A DNA stretch of 64,000 bases from Rhodospirillaceae bacterium (GTDB lineage: Bacteria > Pseudomonadota > Alphaproteobacteria > UBA6615). The translations under genes were made by a program, and so were the position numbers. The notes under the pieces were generated by a model, which was given only the letters and a program-made list of their open reading frames with translations, did no database searches and had not been told where the DNA came from. The stretch spans positions 148,363-212,362 of the forward strand of contig PASR01000008.1 of assembly GCA_002713365.1 (NCBI GenBank). Direction: 5' to 3'. Below are positions 5,244 through 27,718 of this stretch, piece after piece; position 1 is the stretch's first letter, and each line of letters starts with the position of its first letter.

Positions 5244-6884
5244 ATGATAGATTTTTTAACCAGTCCTGACCACTATAAGCATTGGAAAATTAGTTTTAAT
5301 GGTCGAGTTGCAAGCTTAGCATTAAATATTAAGGAAGATGCAGTTATATCAGAGGGATACGAATTGAAACTAAATTCGTATGACTTAGGTGTTGATATTG
5401 AACTTAATGATGCAATCCAACGTCTTAGGTTTGAACATCCTGAAGTAGGGGCAGTAATAATTACCTCTGGCCAAGAACGTATCTTTAGCGCAGGCGCTAA
5501 TATAAAAATGCTCGGACAATCCTCACACGCCGATAAAGTAAATTTTTGTAAATTTACAAATGAAACGCGAAACTCTATTGAGGATGCCAGTGATTATTCG
5601 GGCCAAAGGTATTTATGCATGATAAATGGAAATGCTGCCGGTGGCGGCTATGAATTAGCATTGGCTACAAGTCATATAATCCTAGTTGATGACGGAGCTA
5701 CATCTGTTTCATTACCCGAGGTACCTATGCTAGCAGTATTACCCGGAACTGGAGGTTTAACTAGAGTTGTTGAAAAACGGCGTGTGCGCAGAGATAGAGC
5801 AGATTTTTTCTGTACTACTGGAGAGGGATTAAGAGGAAAAAGGGCTTTAGAGTGGGGGCTTGTAGATGAGCTGGCGTCGCGTTCAAATCTTGAGAATGCT
5901 GCATTTAAAAAAGCAGAATCTCTCGCGAAATTAAGCGACCGTCCTTCAGACAGTGAAGGCATTTTGTTTAAAGATTTAGAACGCAAAATTAGTCGAAATT
6001 CAATTAGATATAAACATGTAACAGTAGATTATGATCGCGAGCTTAGGTCAGCGACAATAATGATAATTGCGCCAATAGAGGTTCCTCCAAAAAATATTGA
6101 AATAATCCATGCTCAAGGTTGTGACTTTTGGCCAGTAGCTATGGCGCGTGAATTAGAAGACGCAATTCTTCATTTAAGGTTTAATGAGCCCGAGTTAGGT
6201 ACATGGATACTAAAAACTTCAGGTGCGAGCCAAAATATAGCAGCGGCCGATCAAGCAATGTATGATAATTCTGATCATTGGCTTATACGTGAAATAACCC
6301 TTTACCTAAAACGTACTTTTAAGCGACTTGATGTTTCTTCTCGTAGCATAATTGCTCTTATAACACCTGGCTCCTGCTTCACTGGAACCTTAATGGAATT
6401 AGCGCTAAGTGCTGATATTTCATACATGCTTGATGGCACAATATTGGACTCAGATATTGAACCAGCAACAGTTCGTCTAACCAATATGAATTTTGGCCCG
6501 TTAATTATGTGCAACGGACTGTCACGTATAGAGAGTAGATTCCTCTGTGATAATAAAGACATATCTAAAATTAGGGATAAGATTGGTGAAGATTTAACAG
6601 CAACTGAAGCAGAGAATTTGGGAATAGTAACATTTATTCCTGATGATATAGACTGGGAAGATGAAGTTAGAGTAGCTATTGAAGCGCGCGCTAGTTTTTC
6701 TCCGGATGCTCTAACTGCTATGGAAGCCAATCTGCGTTTTGGTGGTCCAGAAACCATGGAAAGTAAAATATTTTCCCGTTTATCTGCTTGGCAGAACTGG
6801 GTCTTTTTGCGAAAAAACGCGGGAAATTCGTTACAACTATATGGTAGCGGAAAGAAACCCAAATTCGAACGAGAGCGAATTTAG
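5244..6884 (+). CDS. boxC: benzoyl-CoA-dihydrodiol lyase (2,3-epoxybenzoyl-CoA ring-opening dihydrolase)
   Basis: 546 residues, twice the length of an ordinary crotonase, as expected for BoxC. The enzyme hydrolytically opens 2,3-epoxybenzoyl-CoA to 3,4-dehydroadipyl-CoA semialdehyde plus formate. The N-terminal half carries FSAGANIKMLG (oxyanion) and NGNAAGGGYELALA, followed by SLPEVPMLAVLPGTGGL with its conserved glutamate. The second half is a degenerate crotonase-like domain (CFTGTLMELALSADI). It is first in a tight boxC-boxB-ligase operon, with 3 bp before boxB. The ATG at 5244 is preceded only by a weak AAGAAG. Identification is secure from length and overall pattern. Confidence 0.95.
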   Translation: MIDFLTSPDHYKHWKISFNGRVASLALNIKEDAVISEGYELKLNSYDLGVDIELNDAIQRLRFEHPEVGAVIITSGQERIFSAGANIKMLGQSSHADKVNFCKFTNETRNSIEDASDYSGQRYLCMINGNAAGGGYELALATSHIILVDDGATSVSLPEVPMLAVLPGTGGLTRVVEKRRVRRDRADFFCTTGEGLRGKRALEWGLVDELASRSNLENAAFKKAESLAKLSDRPSDSEGILFKDLERKISRNSIRYKHVTVDYDRELRSATIMIIAPIEVPPKNIEIIHAQGCDFWPVAMARELEDAILHLRFNEPELGTWILKTSGASQNIAAADQAMYDNSDHWLIREITLYLKRTFKRLDVSSRSIIALITPGSCFTGTLMELALSADISYMLDGTILDSDIEPATVRLTNMNFGPLIMCNGLSRIESRFLCDNKDISKIRDKIGEDLTATEAENLGIVTFIPDDIDWEDEVRVAIEARASFSPDALTAMEANLRFGGPETMESKIFSRLSAWQNWVFLRKNAGNSLQLYGSGKKPKFERERI

Positions 6885-6887
6885 AAT

Positions 6888-8303
6888 ATGAAAATAAATT
6901 ATAATGATTTAATACCAAATAATGTTGGCCTTTCTGATGATCGACGACTTTTGCGTGCTCTCGAAAGATGGCAACCAGCTTACCTAAATTGGTGGAACGA
7001 ACTTGGACCTATTGATACAGAAACATTCCAGGTTTATTTGCGGACAGCTATCAGCGTAGAATCAAATGGATGGGCTAATTATGGTCATGTGCATATGCCT
7101 GATTACCGCTGGGGAATTTTTCTAAGCCCCCCAGAACCAAATCGTAAAATAGGCTTCGGATACCATAAAGGAGAAGAGGCATGGTCTGAAGTACCTGGTG
7201 AATACAGAACGGAATTACGCCGACTAATTGTAACACAAGGAGACACTGAACCAGCTTCAGTGGAGCAGCAACGTCATCTGGGGAAAACTTGTCCATCTCT
7301 GTACGATCTTAGAAACTTGTTTCAGGTAAACGTCGAAGAAGGGCGACATCTATGGGCAATGGTATACCTTTTACATGCGCATTTTGGACGAGATGGACGT
7401 GAAGAAGCGGATGAAATGCTCGATCGCCATGCCGGCGACCCAGATAAACCCCGCATACTTGAGGCATTTAACGAGACCACCGATGATTGGCTATCGTTTT
7501 TTATGTTCACTTATTTTCAGGATAGAGATGGCAAGTTTCAACTAGCAGCCCTATCAGAGTCAGGCTTTGATCCCTTATCCAGGACTTGTCGATTCATGTT
7601 GACTGAAGAAGCTCACCATATGTTCGTTGGCGAAACTGGTATAATGCGTATCATTCAAAGAACTTGTGAACTCATGCAAAAGCACGACAGTGATGACGTA
7701 CGCCCATTTGGTGGAATTGATCTACTGACTATTCAAAAATGGATAAATTTTCATTATTCCATTTGCTTAGACTTGTTTGGATCTGAGAAGTCTACAAATG
7801 CTGCGAACTATTACTCTATGGGTCTAAAAGGGCGATACCAAGAAGCTAAAATTAATGATGACCATATTTTAACTAATTCCCAAACTTTGGTCCCTAAAGT
7901 TGAAGATAATAAAATTTCTACTGAAGAATCAGCACTACTTACCGCAATAAATTATAAACTGAGAGAAGATTATGCCAAAGATAGTCAACGCGGAATAAGC
8001 CGTTTTAATAAAATCATTAGAAATTACGCTATAAATACAGAACTTAAACTTCCCGACGCAGCTTTTAATAGAAACATTGGGGTGTTTAAAGATATAAACT
8101 GTTCGCCCGATGGTACTATTTTATCTCAGAGTGAGTGGCAAGAACATCGTCATGAATGGCTACCCTCCGAAGATGATTACGCATTCGTAAGGTCGCTGAT
8201 GGTGCCAGTTATAGAACCAGGAAAAATGGCTAGCTGGATAGCTCCCCCCAAACGCGGTATACATGGCTTAGACATAGACTATGAATACGTAATGTTTCAT
8301 TAA
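6888..8303 (+). CDS. boxB: benzoyl-CoA 2,3-epoxidase, oxygenase component
   Basis: 471 residues. BoxB is a class I di-iron epoxidase that inserts oxygen into benzoyl-CoA, taking electrons from BoxA. The ferritin-like ligand pattern is visible: Glu at about 121, EEGRH at 150-154, an Asp at about 212 (YFQDRDG), and TEEAHH at 239-244. This gives two E-x-x-H pairs. The C-terminal PSEDDYAFVRSLM segment is typical of the family. The ATG lies 3 bp after the boxC stop. Its reductase partner boxA is not in the window, so electrons must come from a gene elsewhere or another reductase. Confidence 0.95.
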   Translation: MKINYNDLIPNNVGLSDDRRLLRALERWQPAYLNWWNELGPIDTETFQVYLRTAISVESNGWANYGHVHMPDYRWGIFLSPPEPNRKIGFGYHKGEEAWSEVPGEYRTELRRLIVTQGDTEPASVEQQRHLGKTCPSLYDLRNLFQVNVEEGRHLWAMVYLLHAHFGRDGREEADEMLDRHAGDPDKPRILEAFNETTDDWLSFFMFTYFQDRDGKFQLAALSESGFDPLSRTCRFMLTEEAHHMFVGETGIMRIIQRTCELMQKHDSDDVRPFGGIDLLTIQKWINFHYSICLDLFGSEKSTNAANYYSMGLKGRYQEAKINDDHILTNSQTLVPKVEDNKISTEESALLTAINYKLREDYAKDSQRGISRFNKIIRNYAINTELKLPDAAFNRNIGVFKDINCSPDGTILSQSEWQEHRHEWLPSEDDYAFVRSLMVPVIEPGKMASWIAPPKRGIHGLDIDYEYVMFH

Positions 8304-8311
8304 TAATACCA

Positions 8312-9889
8312 ATGGAAGATAATACACTTTTAATTGACAGCTCTGTAGCCCCAACAGAGTTAACTTTCTCTCCAATCTTTAACGTATCTGTACCCTTTAT
8401 TGATATTCATATAGAGGAAGGACGAGCAGATAAGGTCGCCATCCGCAATCTAGAAAGCGATATTACATATGGAGAATTATTTGAAAATGTAAATCGAGCG
8501 GGAAATGCCCTCAAAAACCTTAATATAGAAAAGGGCGACCGCGTTCTAATCGTAATTAAGGATAGCCCAGAATTTTTCTACGTCTTCTGGGGAGCAATAA
8601 AAGCTGGCTTCATTCCAGTACCTATCAGCACACTGCTCCGAACAAAAGATTATACTTTCATTATTGAGGATTCTGACTGTTCAGTAGCAATATACTCTCC
8701 CGAGTATGCTGATGAATTCGAAAATGCATTTATAGCCACAAAAACTAGTCCAGAATTTCATATTTGCACGGAAGGTGAAAAAGGTAGCTTAGTCTCTTTC
8801 ATGGCTTCATCAAGTGGTGATTTAGTGGCTCATCCATCAACAGCTGAAGATGATTGCTTTTGGCTATACACTTCAGGCTCAACTGGAACGCCCAAGGGAG
8901 CTGTTCACGCGCATAAAGATATGGTCATTACTAGCCAATACTACGGGGTAGAAACACTCGGTATAACCGATAAAGATGTGCACTATTCAGCTGCAAAATT
9001 ATTTTTTGCATATGGATTAGGAAACGCTATGTCATTTCCACTATGGACAGGAGGTCAAGCAATTTTACACAGCGGTCGTCCAACACCAGAGATAGTTCAT
9101 GAAACAATAGAAACTTTTAAGCCCTCTATTTTTTATGGCGTTCCGACCCTTTACGGCGCTCAATTACAGTCCTTGAATAAAGATATAAAAATATTTCCAT
9201 CTTTAAGACTGTGCGTTTCTGCTGGAGAACCCCTGCCTGAAATAATTTTTAAAAGATGGAAAGAAAGGACAGGACTAACAATCTTGGATGGTATTGGCAC
9301 CACAGAAACCCTCCATATTTTCATTAGCAATCACCTCGATGAAGTAAAACCCGGCACTAGTGGCAAATTAGTGCCCGGATACCAAGCAAAAATTGTAGAT
9401 AAATCTAATAATTCACTGGCGGTTAATGAAATTGGTGAACTAATGATTAAAGGAGAATCTATTATATCACGCTATTGGAATCTGCCTGATCGTTCTTCAG
9501 AGTCCTTAATTGACGGATGGATGCGTACTGGTGATTCATATTCTATTGATGAAGATGGTTTCTTTGTCTGTTATGGGCGAAGTGATGATATGTTAAAAGT
9601 TGGTGGAATCTGGGTATCACCAGTCGAGATTGAAGCCCAATTAATATCGCATGAAAAAGTTCTTGAGGCAGCAATTGTTGGAAAACACGATAAAGATCGC
9701 TTGATCAAGCCAGAAGCATACATTGTTCTGAAAGACCCAAATAGTTACTCTAAATTATTAGCCGAAGAACTACGTGAGTATTGCAAAAATAATCTAGCCC
9801 CTTATAAATATCCGCGTTGGTTTAACTTTGTTGAAGAGCTTCCTAAAACCTCTACAGGAAAAATACAAAGATTTAAACTGAGAGATTAG
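8312..9889 (+). CDS. bclA: benzoate-CoA ligase family protein
   Basis: 525 residues, ANL adenylate-forming enzyme of the benzoate-CoA ligase type. It activates benzoate or a related aromatic acid with ATP and CoA, the entry step of the box pathway. P-loop YTSGSTGTPKG lies at 186-196, the aryl-binding region AKLFFAYGLGNA follows, then GIGTTE (A5), MRTGDSY, and the catalytic lysine in TSTGKIQRFK at the carboxyl end (Lys about 517). It starts 8 bp after boxB and is the last gene of that operon, ending 34 bp from the convergent livF. Specificity (benzoate versus substituted benzoates) cannot be told. Confidence 0.9.
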   Translation: MEDNTLLIDSSVAPTELTFSPIFNVSVPFIDIHIEEGRADKVAIRNLESDITYGELFENVNRAGNALKNLNIEKGDRVLIVIKDSPEFFYVFWGAIKAGFIPVPISTLLRTKDYTFIIEDSDCSVAIYSPEYADEFENAFIATKTSPEFHICTEGEKGSLVSFMASSSGDLVAHPSTAEDDCFWLYTSGSTGTPKGAVHAHKDMVITSQYYGVETLGITDKDVHYSAAKLFFAYGLGNAMSFPLWTGGQAILHSGRPTPEIVHETIETFKPSIFYGVPTLYGAQLQSLNKDIKIFPSLRLCVSAGEPLPEIIFKRWKERTGLTILDGIGTTETLHIFISNHLDEVKPGTSGKLVPGYQAKIVDKSNNSLAVNEIGELMIKGESIISRYWNLPDRSSESLIDGWMRTGDSYSIDEDGFFVCYGRSDDMLKVGGIWVSPVEIEAQLISHEKVLEAAIVGKHDKDRLIKPEAYIVLKDPNSYSKLLAEELREYCKNNLAPYKYPRWFNFVEELPKTSTGKIQRFKLRD

Positions 9890-9923: not shown

Positions 9924-10625
9924 TTAGACACCCAAATAGTTTTGTTTTAATTGTTCATTAGCACGCAGTTCCATAGAGGTTCCTTGCCAAACAACTCTAC
10001 CCTTCTCAATAATGTAATGGCGATCAGCTATTTGTGATAAAATATCTACATTCTTATCTATTACCAAAAGTGCTAATGATTCTTTTTTTAGCCTCTGCAA
10101 ACATTTCCAAATTTCTTGCCTAACCATTGGGGCTAGTCCCTCTGTTGCTTCATCAAGAATTAAAAGTTTAGGATTAGTCATTAGCGCTCGCCCTATAGCT
10201 AACATTTGCTGTTCACCGCCTGATAACTGATTTCCCATACTACCTAAACGATCTTTCAGAACCGGAAATAAATCAATAACGCGCTCCATTGACCACCCAT
10301 CACCTTTATTGTTTGCAGGTACAGCGGTAGCAACCAAATTTTCTCGTACTGTTAAGTTAGGAAATATTTGTCTACCTTCAGGTACTAATCCAATTCCATA
10401 TTTTGCAACCCTAAATGATGGTAAATTACTTATAATTTTTTCTTCAAATTTAATATTACCCGCCACTATGGATAAGATACCCATAATTGTCCTTACGGTA
10501 GTTGTCTTACCCATTCCATTTCGACCTAAAAGAGTTACAAATTCTCCAGCGGAAATTTCTAAAGTCATTCCATACAGCACTTGGCTATCACCGTAAGCTG
10601 CTTCTACTGATTGTATGGACAGCAT
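9924..10625 (-). CDS. livF: branched-chain-type ABC transporter ATP-binding protein
   Basis: 233 residues, LivF class. Walker A GRNGMGKTT at about 35-43, signature LSGGEQQMLAIGRAL, Walker B LLILDEATEGLAP and the LivF-type LLVIDKNVD in place of the H-loop region. It powers the inner-membrane importer made by livH-livM with livG. Its ATG shares one base with the livG stop (TAATG), so the two are translationally coupled. It is the last gene of the operon, and its stop lies 34 bp from the convergent benzoate-CoA ligase. Confidence 0.93.
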   Translation of the reverse strand: MLSIQSVEAAYGDSQVLYGMTLEISAGEFVTLLGRNGMGKTTTVRTIMGILSIVAGNIKFEEKIISNLPSFRVAKYGIGLVPEGRQIFPNLTVRENLVATAVPANNKGDGWSMERVIDLFPVLKDRLGSMGNQLSGGEQQMLAIGRALMTNPKLLILDEATEGLAPMVRQEIWKCLQRLKKESLALLVIDKNVDILSQIADRHYIIEKGRVVWQGTSMELRANEQLKQNYLGV

Positions 10626-11383
10626 TATGTGATCTCTTCGTGATGACCCAAATACGCCGCTCGAACTTCCTCATTAGCTCGTATGTCTGAAGGGACACCA
10701 GACGCAATATCTCTGCCATACACTAGTACTGTAATTTGATCTGCTAACGCAAAAACAGCATCCATATCATGTTCAATAAGGAGCATAGTAAAGTCGGACT
10801 TTAGTTCATTAAGTAAGGATATCATAGTTTGACTTTCCTCAGCTCCCATGCCGGCCATTGGTTCATCCAAAAGTAACATTTTAGGTTGCGTCGCAAGGGC
10901 CATTGCAATTTCTAACTGTCGTTTTTCACCGTGGGCTAGATTACCAGCAATTACCTCTGCGCGAGCACCTAAACCAATTCTATCTAGAATTTCAAGTGCG
11001 GGTATACGTAGCCGGTCATCATTATTAGTCGGTCGCCAAAATCGAAAATTATGAGCACTCCGAGCTAGAATAGAAAAAACAACGTTATCTAGAGTCGAAA
11101 AATCAGGGAAAATACTTGTAATTTGAAATGAACGAGCTAATCCAAGGTTTGCGCGTTTTGATGGCCGAAGACGAGTAATAATTTTGTCATCAAACATTAT
11201 TTCTCCGGAATCAGGTAAAAGTTGTCCAGACAAAATATTAATAAGTGTGGTCTTACCCGCACCATTTGGGCCGATAATAGCATGGATTTGACCTGTCATT
11301 ACCTCTAAAGATAAATTATCACTAGCAATTATTCCTCCAAATGCCTTACAAATATTTTGTGTTTTTAATAAAGGTTTAATCAT
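10625..11383 (-). CDS. livG: branched-chain-type ABC transporter ATP-binding protein
   Basis: About 252 residues from the ATG at 11383, which begins inside the end of livM (8-bp overlap). A longer in-frame start adds an unconserved lead. Walker A GPNGAGKTT, a long LivG-type insert (RSAHNFRFWRP), signature LAHGEKRQLEIAMALA, Walker B LLLDEPMAGMG and switch LIEHDMD are visible. The insert and the missing SGG in the signature are typical of LivG. It pairs with LivF as the ATPase heterodimer of the importer. Confidence 0.92.
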   Translation of the reverse strand: MIKPLLKTQNICKAFGGIIASDNLSLEVMTGQIHAIIGPNGAGKTTLINILSGQLLPDSGEIMFDDKIITRLRPSKRANLGLARSFQITSIFPDFSTLDNVVFSILARSAHNFRFWRPTNNDDRLRIPALEILDRIGLGARAEVIAGNLAHGEKRQLEIAMALATQPKMLLLDEPMAGMGAEESQTMISLLNELKSDFTMLLIEHDMDAVFALADQITVLVYGRDIASGVPSDIRANEEVRAAYLGHHEEIT

Positions 11384-12332
11384 TACTTTTCCCGAAAAGG
11401 CCCGATAGCCCTCCTCGACCATATAACACCAGTATTATTAATAGAGGGCCAAAAATTAGATGCCAGTGTATTGTAAAACTTGATAGAATCTCAGATAGAA
11501 CAAGATAAGCTGTCGCTCCCATTACTGGTCCAAATACAGTGCCTAATCCGCCCATTATCACCATAAACATTAGCTCACCGGAGCGCGGCCAATCCATCAT
11601 GTCCGGACTCACAAATTTCTCAAAATTAGCCTGTAAAACACCTGCCAAACCGCATATAACCCCGGAAATTACAAACGCTGTCAGACGATAAGAATATGTT
11701 CTGATACCTACTGTGTTTAAGCGCACCTCATTGGATCGAGACCCCTTTAAAACCATTCCAAAGCGAGAATTTACTAAACGCCGAGTAAAATAAATTACAA
11801 GTAGGAGTAAAAAGAAAATTACGTAATAAAACGTAATATTATCATCAATTTTAAAATTGACATTTCCTAACTTAAAATGGCTACGGTGCCATACATTTAG
11901 TCCGTCATTACTACCATATTTATCCGCGCTTACGCCTAAGAAATAAATCATCTGGGCAAAAGCTAATGTAATCATAATAAAATATACGCCCTTCGTACGG
12001 AGTGATAGAGCGCCAAACAGTAAAGCGACAGCTCCACTAATTGCTAAAGCCACAGGCCACTGAATAAAACCATTATTTATCTCATGGAAACTAAATATAG
12101 CTATCGTATAGCCACCTATGCCAATATAGGCAGCATGCCCAAAGCTCACCATGCCACCGTAGCCAAGTATCAAATTAAGGCCAACCGCTGCAATTGACCA
12201 GATCATTATACGCGCAAAAACATCTACATAAAATGCCTCACCTAAAATTGGTGCTAAGAAAGGCATAAGAGCAAAAAGTAATAGTAGAATTACAGTACTA
12301 GAAGGAGTAGCTTTTTCCATTAGTCTCAGCAT
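11376..12332 (-). CDS. livM: branched-chain-type ABC transporter permease
   Basis: 318 residues with about eight to nine hydrophobic segments. LNLILGYGGMVSFGHAAYIGIGGY near residues 52-75 and the GVYFIMITLAFAQM segment are characteristic of LivM permeases. The EAA-like coupling region GLAGVLQANFEKFVSPDMMDWPRSGELMFMVIMGGLGT is intact. The ATG at 12332 lies 8 bp after the ancestral stop of livH, and a GGAGGA ribosome site sits within the end of livH. It forms the membrane channel with LivH, which is interrupted in this sequence. Confidence 0.92.
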   Translation of the reverse strand: MLRLMEKATPSSTVILLLLFALMPFLAPILGEAFYVDVFARIMIWSIAAVGLNLILGYGGMVSFGHAAYIGIGGYTIAIFSFHEINNGFIQWPVALAISGAVALLFGALSLRTKGVYFIMITLAFAQMIYFLGVSADKYGSNDGLNVWHRSHFKLGNVNFKIDDNITFYYVIFFLLLLVIYFTRRLVNSRFGMVLKGSRSNEVRLNTVGIRTYSYRLTAFVISGVICGLAGVLQANFEKFVSPDMMDWPRSGELMFMVIMGGLGTVFGPVMGATAYLVLSEILSSFTIHWHLIFGPLLIILVLYGRGGLSGLFGKSND

Positions 12333-12339
12333 TATTTTA

Positions 12340-13263
12340 TCATCCTCCTCGAGGAGGAAAGAGGCCTTGTGGACGAAAAACTAATACAGCCGCCATTAAC
12401 AAATAGATAAGCATGGAAGATAGAGCTGGCCCAGCTGCTTCGGCAGCATTAGACGGAAGTAGAGCTAATAACAGGACATCTAGAAAAGCCCTTCCCATTG
12501 TGTCAATTACGCCGGCCAGGATAGAAGCAATAAATGCACCACGTATAGATCATATTCCTCCAATCACGATCACTACAAATGCTAAAATTAATATCTCCTC
12601 CCCCATACCTATTTGAGCTTGATTAATAGGAGCAATAAGCATCCCTGCCAATCCAGCAAGCATAGCTCCTAGCCCAAAAACTGCAGTAAAAAGTAGTCGA
12701 ATGTTAACACCCAAGGCGCTTGCCATAACCCGATTAGACGCGCCTGCCCTTATCAGCATCCCTAATCGTGTCTTTGCAACCAACCAATACAACCCTATTG
12801 CAACTAACACACCAATTAGAATTATGAACAATCTATATGTAGGATAAACAATTCCTAGAGGTAGGTTAATACTCCCATCAAGCAATATGGGTAAAGGTAT
12901 CGCTAAGCCCGCAGGACCCCAAATTATTCTTACAAGCTCGTTCAGAAAAAGTATTAGCCCAAAGGTAGCTAATACTTGGTCCATATGGTCTCGAGCATAA
13001 ATAGTCCTTAGAGCAATAAACTCCAACACCATGCCAAACAGCAAGGTTAATGGCAAAGCAAAAATTATTCCTAAAATAAACGAGTCTAACCACAAAGTAA
13101 GTGTGGCAGCTGTAAAGGCACCGACCATATAAATCGATCCATGCGCTAGATTTACAAGGTCCATTATACCAAAAACTAAAGTCAATCCTGCTGCAAATAA
13201 AAAAAGCAGCATTCCAAGCTGAAATCCATTTAAAAGTTGTTCAACAAAAATATTTATATCCAT
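12340..13263 (-). pseudogene. livH: branched-chain-type ABC permease livH with in-frame premature TGA
   Basis: From the ATG at 13263 (GGAAGAG just upstream) the frame encodes 237 residues of a LivH permease, with LTLVFGIMDLVNLAHGSIYM and LRTIYARDHMDQVLATFGL. It then meets TGA at 12550-12552. The same frame continues for 69 more codons (SIRGAFIASILAGVIDTMGRAF ... FRPQGLFPPRGG) to a second TGA at 12340-12342. In the family this place reads GGIGSIRGA, so the stop replaces the conserved Gly, one base from GGA. The carboxyl part, including the last helices, would be lost. It could be a real nonsense mutation, a population variant or a sequencing error. TGA is used as an ordinary stop elsewhere here. 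Confidence 0.88.
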
Positions 13264-13337: not shown

Positions 13338-14510
13338 TTATAGATTACAGTCTTTAGCATAAACGTCTTGATGATCTTTTAATGCTACACCGGTAATCTT
13401 TGTAGTCCATTTACCATTACTATCAACAACTACTTCCCGGCTATAGAAGTTCTGAATTGGGAAATGGTTATTACCAAATCGAACCTTCCCTCTTACTGAT
13501 GCAAAATCTGCTTTCTCAAGAGCTGCACGCATAGCGTCTACATCGCCTACCTTTCCGCCAGTCGCTTCTACGGCTGACTTAATAAGAAAGATAGAATCAT
13601 ATGCTTGTGCGGCATAAAATGACGGATAACTACCATGCTTCTTTTTAAAATCAGCAACAAAACGCTTGTTTTGAGGATTATCCATATCAGGAGACCAAAA
13701 TTGAGTCATTGTTGTTCCTAAAACCCCTGTCATTTTAGCCTGCTGTAGTCTCGGTAGGCTAAGAGAATCTAGAGTATAAACTGAATAGAGAGGAGTGCTA
13801 GACAGTCCGGCTTGTGCATACTGCTTTAAAAAGGCTGCCCCATGTTTTCCAGGATAAAAAGTAAACACTGCATCTGGTTTAGCAGCTTTAACTTTTGTAA
13901 ACTCAGCGGACCAGTCTATCTGTGTAGGCCACGTTGTCATATCCTTCCCAACCACTTTGCCTTTGAAAGTTCGTTCAACTCCTGCAACCATATCCTTTCC
14001 TGCAGCATAGTTAGGAGCTAGTACATAAAGTGACTTTATTGCTCTCTGATTAAGTACTTCTCCTAATGCCATCGGAGTTTGATCATTCTGCCAAGAAATA
14101 TTAAAGAAATTCTTATGACAGTTTTTTCCTGCTAAAGGTGAGGGACCGGCATTAGCGCTAATTAAAATTTTATTTGCATTAAGCACTACTGGGGCGGAAG
14201 CTAACAGGACGTGAGACCATATGTAACCTGCAACTATATCAACATCACCAGATTTAATAAGTTTTTCTGTTTTCTGTTTACCCTTTTGAGGATTAAATTC
14301 ATCGTCTTCATATATTATATTAACATCTAGAGCTCCCATCTTGCCGCCAATGTGCTCAACAGCAAGGTCAACAGCCTTCTTTTGGTCCACACCAATAATG
14401 GCAGCGCCAGTTGTTAAAGTAGTTACAAATCCAATGTTTATGGATTTAGCGTATGCTACTGATGAAGCCATCGCTAGAATCGCCGTGGCACTTAGAATTT
14501 TTTTAATCAT
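13338..14510 (-). CDS. ABC transporter periplasmic substrate-binding protein (HAAT family)
   Basis: 390 residues with a clear signal peptide (MIKKILSATAILAMASSVAYA, cleavage after AYA), so it is periplasmic. The rest is a type I Leu/Ile/Val-binding fold: NIGFVTTLTTGAAIIGVDQKKAVDLAVEHIGG, IYEDDEFNPQKGKQKTEKLI, and a C-terminal YSREVVVDSNGKW. Two cysteines near CHKNFFNISWQ and the last CNL may form a disulfide. It is first in the binding protein-livH-livM-livG-livF operon. Related proteins bind amino acids, amides or aromatic acids. The convergent box operon makes an aromatic acid a reasonable candidate ligand, but sequence does not prove this. Confidence 0.92.
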   Translation of the reverse strand: MIKKILSATAILAMASSVAYAKSINIGFVTTLTTGAAIIGVDQKKAVDLAVEHIGGKMGALDVNIIYEDDEFNPQKGKQKTEKLIKSGDVDIVAGYIWSHVLLASAPVVLNANKILISANAGPSPLAGKNCHKNFFNISWQNDQTPMALGEVLNQRAIKSLYVLAPNYAAGKDMVAGVERTFKGKVVGKDMTTWPTQIDWSAEFTKVKAAKPDAVFTFYPGKHGAAFLKQYAQAGLSSTPLYSVYTLDSLSLPRLQQAKMTGVLGTTMTQFWSPDMDNPQNKRFVADFKKKHGSYPSFYAAQAYDSIFLIKSAVEATGGKVGDVDAMRAALEKADFASVRGKVRFGNNHFPIQNFYSREVVVDSNGKWTTKITGVALKDHQDVYAKDCNL

Positions 14511-26602: not shown

Positions 26603-27718
26603 TTATTTAATTATAAGAGGTGGTAATAAACGCAATACATTTTCACCAGCAACAACGGTTAATAAACCAGATTCACGAGCATAATCACAAAATACAGTAT
26701 TTATATATGGTTCAGATAATACAATGCCTAACATCAGGCCGCTACCACGAACCTCTTTAATAACCTCAGGATGGCGCCCTGCTAGATCATCCAAACGGCT
26801 TTTCAACAAAGAGCTAATTCGGTTAACCTCATTTAAAAACCCTTCTTCTAATAATATATCAAGTGTAGCATTAGCTGCAGCCATAGCGAGTGGGTTTCCC
26901 CCGAAGGTACTGCCGTGTGTTCCCGGGGACATAGCATCTGAGACATGCGATTTAGCTAAAACGGCTCCACAAGGAAAACCACTTGCAATACCTTTCGCAC
27001 ACGCCATAATATCAGGCGTAACCCCAGCCCATTCATGGGCAAATAGCTTGCCTGTTCGTCCAAAACCGGTTTGCACTTCATCAAACACCAATAATACATC
27101 TTTTTTATCAGCGACTGATCGCAAGGTTTGTAAGTAGTTTATATCAAGTGGTCGTATGCCTCCCTCTCCTTGAAGTGGTTCAACAATTATTGCTGCCGTT
27201 TCCTCAGTAATGGCTGCGAGCATGACATCTAAATCATTGGGCGGGACAATATCAAAGCCCTGAACTGGAGGCCCGAATCCTTCAAGGTGCTTAGGATTGT
27301 TTGCAGCGCCTAAGGTAGCCAATGTGCGGCCATGAAAGGAGCCTTCTAGAGTAACTGCCCTGTAACGTTCAACTTTTCCATTAACGGCCTGATATTTGCG
27401 GGCAACCTTTATGGCCCCCTCCATGGCTTCTGCTCCCGAATTACAAAAAAATATTGAATCAGCAAAGCAAGCGTTAACTAGTCGCTCGGCATAATTACTC
27501 TGTTCAGGTATCTCATACAAATTTGATACATGCCAAAGACGTTGAACTTGAGCTTCTAAAGCTGCCACCAACTTTGGATGGCTATGTCCCATGGAAACAA
27601 CAGCTATGCCCCCTGCACCATCTAGATAACGCTTTCCTTCTGTGGAATACAGATAGGAACCCTCTCCTCGTTCAAAGGCAATGGGTAAACGTCCATATGT
27701 CTGCATAATACTATTCAT
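26603..27718 (-). CDS. argD: acetylornithine aminotransferase, C-terminus truncated by a TAA
   Basis: 371 residues, class III PLP aminotransferase; it makes N-acetylornithine from the semialdehyde (and often serves lysine synthesis too). Visible: GGIAVVSMGHSHPKL, NSGAEAMEGAIKVAR, EGSFHGRTLATL, VFDEVQTGFGRTGKLFAHE and the PLP lysine in ACAKGIASGFPCGA. The frame stops at LLPPLIIK-TAA (26603-26605). The same frame continues for 25 codons (PEIDIILNALENAC...) to a TAA at 26525-26527, matching the usual tail in which LPPLII is followed by E-ID and a helix. So about 25 residues appear lost, possibly by GAA-to-TAA. Function may survive or be reduced. Confidence 0.9.
   Translation of the reverse strand: MNSIMQTYGRLPIAFERGEGSYLYSTEGKRYLDGAGGIAVVSMGHSHPKLVAALEAQVQRLWHVSNLYEIPEQSNYAERLVNACFADSIFFCNSGAEAMEGAIKVARKYQAVNGKVERYRAVTLEGSFHGRTLATLGAANNPKHLEGFGPPVQGFDIVPPNDLDVMLAAITEETAAIIVEPLQGEGGIRPLDINYLQTLRSVADKKDVLLVFDEVQTGFGRTGKLFAHEWAGVTPDIMACAKGIASGFPCGAVLAKSHVSDAMSPGTHGSTFGGNPLAMAAANATLDILLEEGFLNEVNRISSLLKSRLDDLAGRHPEVIKEVRGSGLMLGIVLSEPYINTVFCDYARESGLLTVVAGENVLRLLPPLIIK

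Follow-up and report, generated by a model that had tools for sequence, protein, structure and literature searches.

Permeases of the LivH/UrtB family (PF02653; TIGR03409, NF008011) are the closest described counterparts of the livH-like gene analysed here, which shares with them family, length and the operon order SBP-H-M-G-F, and 105 relatives align with it over almost its whole length; it differs from them in an internal TGA at an invariant glycine, and it lies under both the LivH and the UrtB equivalog cut-offs when scored, as here, only up to that stop. Bacterial selenoproteins share with livH the in-frame UGA and selenocysteine machinery in the genome, but livH lacks a SECIS-like hairpin, and its relatives have an invariant Gly and neither Sec nor Cys. 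Single-base nonsense errors or rare variants in draft MAGs share with it the isolated in-frame stop with no other damage, and the count of such stops found here (livH and argD) matches the single-base background of the assembly. The explanation of the livH stop looks ordinary and of a known kind rather than like a new mechanism.

The window is the whole stretch of 64,000 nucleotides that was analysed, bases 148363-212362 of contig 6 (G000:C6) of the 2.5 Mb genome (G000) of an uncultured marine Rhodospirillaceae bacterium, whose nearest named relatives are alphaproteobacterial drafts, e.g. MarineAlpha12_Bin1 and ALOHA_A2.5_4. Comparisons were made with two genus mates (G001 and G002) and one genome of the same family (G008). 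Feature coordinates are collected in the table.

Table. Features of the importer operon and its surroundings (window positions)
Feature	Position	Strand	Remark
livH-like permease gene, PF02653 BPD_transp_2	12340..13263	-	interrupted 307-codon frame; translation and profile match
In-frame TGA, codon 238 of livH	12550..12552	-	Gly in 105/105 relatives
Conserved LivH C-terminus, 69 codons 3' of the stop	12343..12549	-	no relaxed constraint; no SECIS-like fold
livK/urtA-like substrate-binding protein (PF13458)	13338..14510	-	intact
livM-like permease	11376..12332	-	intact
livG/urtD-like ATPase	10625..11422	-	intact
livF/urtE-like ATPase	9924..10625	-	intact
boxC, boxB, benzoate-CoA ligase	5244..9889	+	adjoin importer; all above curated cut-offs

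Translation of the livH frame (13263 to 12340) gave 237 codons, the TGA at 12550-12552, 69 further codons and then the natural end, a TGA at 12340-12342 with a TAA directly after it; the ATG of livM at 12332 stands 7 bases past this natural stop. The frame, uninterrupted in a LivH/UrtB-type permease, is broken in livH by the first TGA, in which no base is marked as ambiguous. BPD_transp_2 matched residues 1-237 with an E value of 4e-26 and 92 bits (gathering cut-off 26.8), and in a PF02653 search of the genome the livH place scored 113 bits, above the family cut-off, with one TGA inside. Equivalog scores for the part before the stop only were 155 with TIGR03409 (cut-off 250) and 60 with NF008011 (cut-off 379), and because livH is under these cut-offs its substrate is not assigned by family. 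With livH scored to the stop only, every member of the operon stays below the curated Liv and Urt equivalog cut-offs.

The importer is a five-gene Liv/Urt-type set in which livH is accompanied, as expected of a LivH/UrtB-type permease, by a binding protein, a second permease and two ATPases, and these four partners are intact. Genes of the aerobic benzoyl-CoA (box) pathway were observed at window 5244-9889 (plus strand), beside a Liv-type importer in a marine alphaproteobacterium. The order boxC, boxB, importer, HpcH-type lyase, amidase is kept in G001, G002 and G008; in the stretches searched, G008 alone also has the benzoate-CoA ligase in this order, and none was found in those of G001 and G002, where boxC-boxB and the importer are adjacent. 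Since the box genes adjoin the importer and the order is kept in relatives, gene context suggests that the importer's cargo is probably benzoate or a similar aromatic acid. The genome has three more Liv-type permease pairs.

Glycine was found in the column of livH codon 238 in 29/29 permeases from related genomes and in 80/80 loci from the GTDB genome collection; the two sets have three genomes in common and were merged into a set of 105 relatives. The column is among 64 that are nearly invariant across this merged set, and G000 deviates at two of the 64, codon 238 included. The livH genes of G001, G002 and G008 have Gly codons at the site and open frames, and the proteins of the three nearest relatives are uninterrupted and 86-88% identical to that of G000. 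The preliminary description had proposed a single-codon in-frame interruption at a conserved glycine, with coding sequence continuing to the natural end; both parts were confirmed, by translation, by the 69 conserved codons past the TGA and by the alignment with other LivH proteins (Gly in 105 of 105). It had also taken Gly in a related genome as proof of a sequence error. Gly is indeed present in the relatives; these belong to other species, with saturated synonymous sites, and the finding is insufficient as proof when taken alone.

No relative's livH is split in two, which argues against a functional split permease made as two polypeptides by a translation restart 3' of the TGA. An in-frame ATG is available for such a restart at codon 256, but no ribosome-binding sequence is evident ahead of it, and initiation there would leave 52 residues and skip residues 238-255. 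The split gene was rejected for want of a plausible restart site, and we regard it as scarcely credible.

Several tests bear on the decoding of UGA. The genome has RF2, TGA is the terminator of 21 of the 200 genes compared, and the livH codon is the only mid-gene TGA found in 204 orthologues. The tRNAs inspected have ordinary anticodons, except for one UCA tRNA, which is tRNA-Sec, and one incomplete, untyped tRNA at the end of a contig; a second tRNA with a UCA anticodon was not found among them. A change of the genetic code was rejected on these grounds (TGA in use as a terminator, RF2, no further mid-gene TGA in the orthologues, no UCA sense tRNA). A complete selenocysteine system, consisting of selA, selB, tRNA-Sec and an oxidoreductase-SelD fusion, was observed at G000:C2:60000-79999. 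Formate dehydrogenase, checked as a possible Sec user, has no internal stop, and the selenoproteins of the genome were not found. As tRNA-Sec (with its UCA anticodon), SelB, SelA and SelD are all encoded, selenocysteine reading needed testing: the UGA could be decoded as a residue, either Sec by this machinery or another residue by some other suppressor, to give a full-length permease. Against this, a SECIS hairpin was not found just 3' of the livH UGA, where the RNA folds no better than shuffled sequence (z-scores of +1.9, i.e. worse than the shuffles, and +0.4) and worse than 196 of 200 shuffles. Sec or Cys was found at codon 238 in none of the homologues, Gly being present even within the genus, and the lack of a second UCA tRNA, the RF2 and the ordinary use of TGA weigh on the same side. 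Decoding as a residue is a very remote prospect, and hardly any probability attaches to a leaky or Sec-decoded UGA yielding a little full-length permease by which uptake is tuned. Recoding and a split gene, counted jointly, are highly improbable.

The three nearest relatives agree with one another at 203 sites before the stop and at 56 after it; G000 departs from them at 11 and 2 of these, respectively. The dN of livH is 0.115-0.127 before the stop and 0.08-0.10 after it, similar to the distances among the relatives, and dS from G000 is saturated. An old pseudogene was rejected, as livH has neither relaxed constraint on either side of the stop nor further lesions. Further lesions beyond the livH TGA were not found in the importer operon either. 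Had selection on the gene lapsed for more than a small fraction of the branch, far more replacements would be expected, so the stop, if a real mutation, would on sequence evidence be very young. That the stop is real, a nonsense allele of very recent origin that is rare or confined to a strain and makes the importer fail in the cells that carry it, is possible, at somewhat short of even odds. The plain base call is in its favour, and the three further Liv-type permease pairs may make such a loss tolerable. The intact constraint on livH and the otherwise undamaged operon count against it, although they bound the age of the allele rather than exclude it. A recent real stop and a sequence error look alike in constraint data, and this is the chief limit of the analysis. 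The substitution spectrum between G000 and its genus mates gave no usable error signal, because synonymous sites are saturated with respect to G000 and genuine changes drown out any errors.

The background of single-base differences was estimated from the ambiguous positions of the contig. Isolated single-N positions were observed at 185 places in G000:C6:1-148362 (about one per 800 bases), the last being one base before the window; from the start of the window to 490 kb there is none, and four more isolated N lie near the far end of the contig (G000:C6:490215-491598). The 189 N positions of the contig fall 34, 31 and 101 times on codon positions 1, 2 and 3, and this enrichment at the third position (101/166) makes it probable that they are partly real strain variation, a point in favour of a young allele in the population. 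Compared with the divergence pattern of G001 and G002, 36% (19-53%) of them behave as unconstrained changes. The way the N are spread along the contig is compatible with a merging of overlapping sources in which conflicting bases were masked wherever the sources had been joined. Tara Oceans genomes were obtained from per-sample assemblies merged in two steps with Minimus2 (PMC5769542, PMC5507172), and the texts of both papers make no mention of ambiguous bases; we offer as conjecture a link between the N pattern and Minimus2-type merging. A literature search for premature stops in draft genomes from metagenomes was without result.

Orthologues were aligned to the contig at a minimum of 60% identity (204 from G001, 201 from G002 and 40 from G008), the comparison covering stretches of this one contig and the matching contigs of the relatives. 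Interruptions in mid-gene are unusual here: two internal nonsense codons were found among the 204, the livH TGA and a TAA in argD; the remaining stops lie close to the ends of genes, most of them ahead of likely start codons. No frameshifts were seen in the 204, so overall the assembly is not a poor one. When G001 and G002 were tested in this way, differences appeared only close to gene ends. The argD gene (acetylornithine transaminase, 26603..27718, minus strand) was observed to carry its in-frame TAA near the C-terminus, and about 25 codons continue 3' of it, to about 26525, before the next stop, the start of this stretch being homologous to the C-terminus of the relatives. It is the genome's only gene above the argD cut-off, and its real loss would be costly. 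With two source contigs assumed and the rate taken from the neighbouring part of the contig, 1.0-2.9 nonsense codons were expected in the orthologue set and two were observed. The livH stop is within this background, be it one of error or of rare deleterious variation, and is not clearly more than chance; the same agreement between the two nonsense codons in about 200 genes and the prediction tells against a young allele.

We take the livH TGA to be a sequencing, assembly or consensus error, with a probability of roughly 0.55. In its favour are the glycine of all relatives and the open frames of the three nearest, the conserved sequence past the stop, the agreement of expected and observed nonsense codons, and the second such codon in a gene as costly to lose as argD. 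Against it, the window itself is free of N, the rate is extrapolated from the neighbouring part under the assumption of two source contigs, frameshifts are absent from the orthologues, and the unconstrained share of the N positions could instead be real, weakly deleterious strain variation. If the base is an error, the TGA would stem from one substituted base in the consensus sequence of a composite draft, within an otherwise intact permease gene; in most cells codon 238 of livH would then be a Gly codon, the permease would function as usual alongside the four intact partners of its operon, and the importer would probably supply the box (benzoyl-CoA) pathway encoded beside it with an aromatic acid. 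Both the error status of the livH base itself and the substrate of the importer are what we infer from these comparisons. The earlier suggestion that uptake by the operon would fail gained no support from these comparisons. Conservation is equally strong on the two sides of the stop, and the background suffices to explain one to three such stops by chance; together these make a fixed broken gene no more likely than an error or a rare variant.

By itself the livH stop is of little weight. It gives a caution for composite drafts, in which isolated stops in constrained genes occur at about the background single-base rate and, where read support is lacking, are not to be taken as lost function or recoding. 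Should the stop be real, the product would be a 237-residue protein without the last transmembrane segments, and the importer would probably fail; a homologue of solved structure was not found for the permease by sequence search, so the number of membrane helices lost is read from hydropathy only. Aromatic-acid uptake might then be impaired, with the other Liv-type systems perhaps partly covering for the failed importer, and the stop would mark the very recent disappearance from this lineage of a Liv-type importer that probably served aromatic-acid use.
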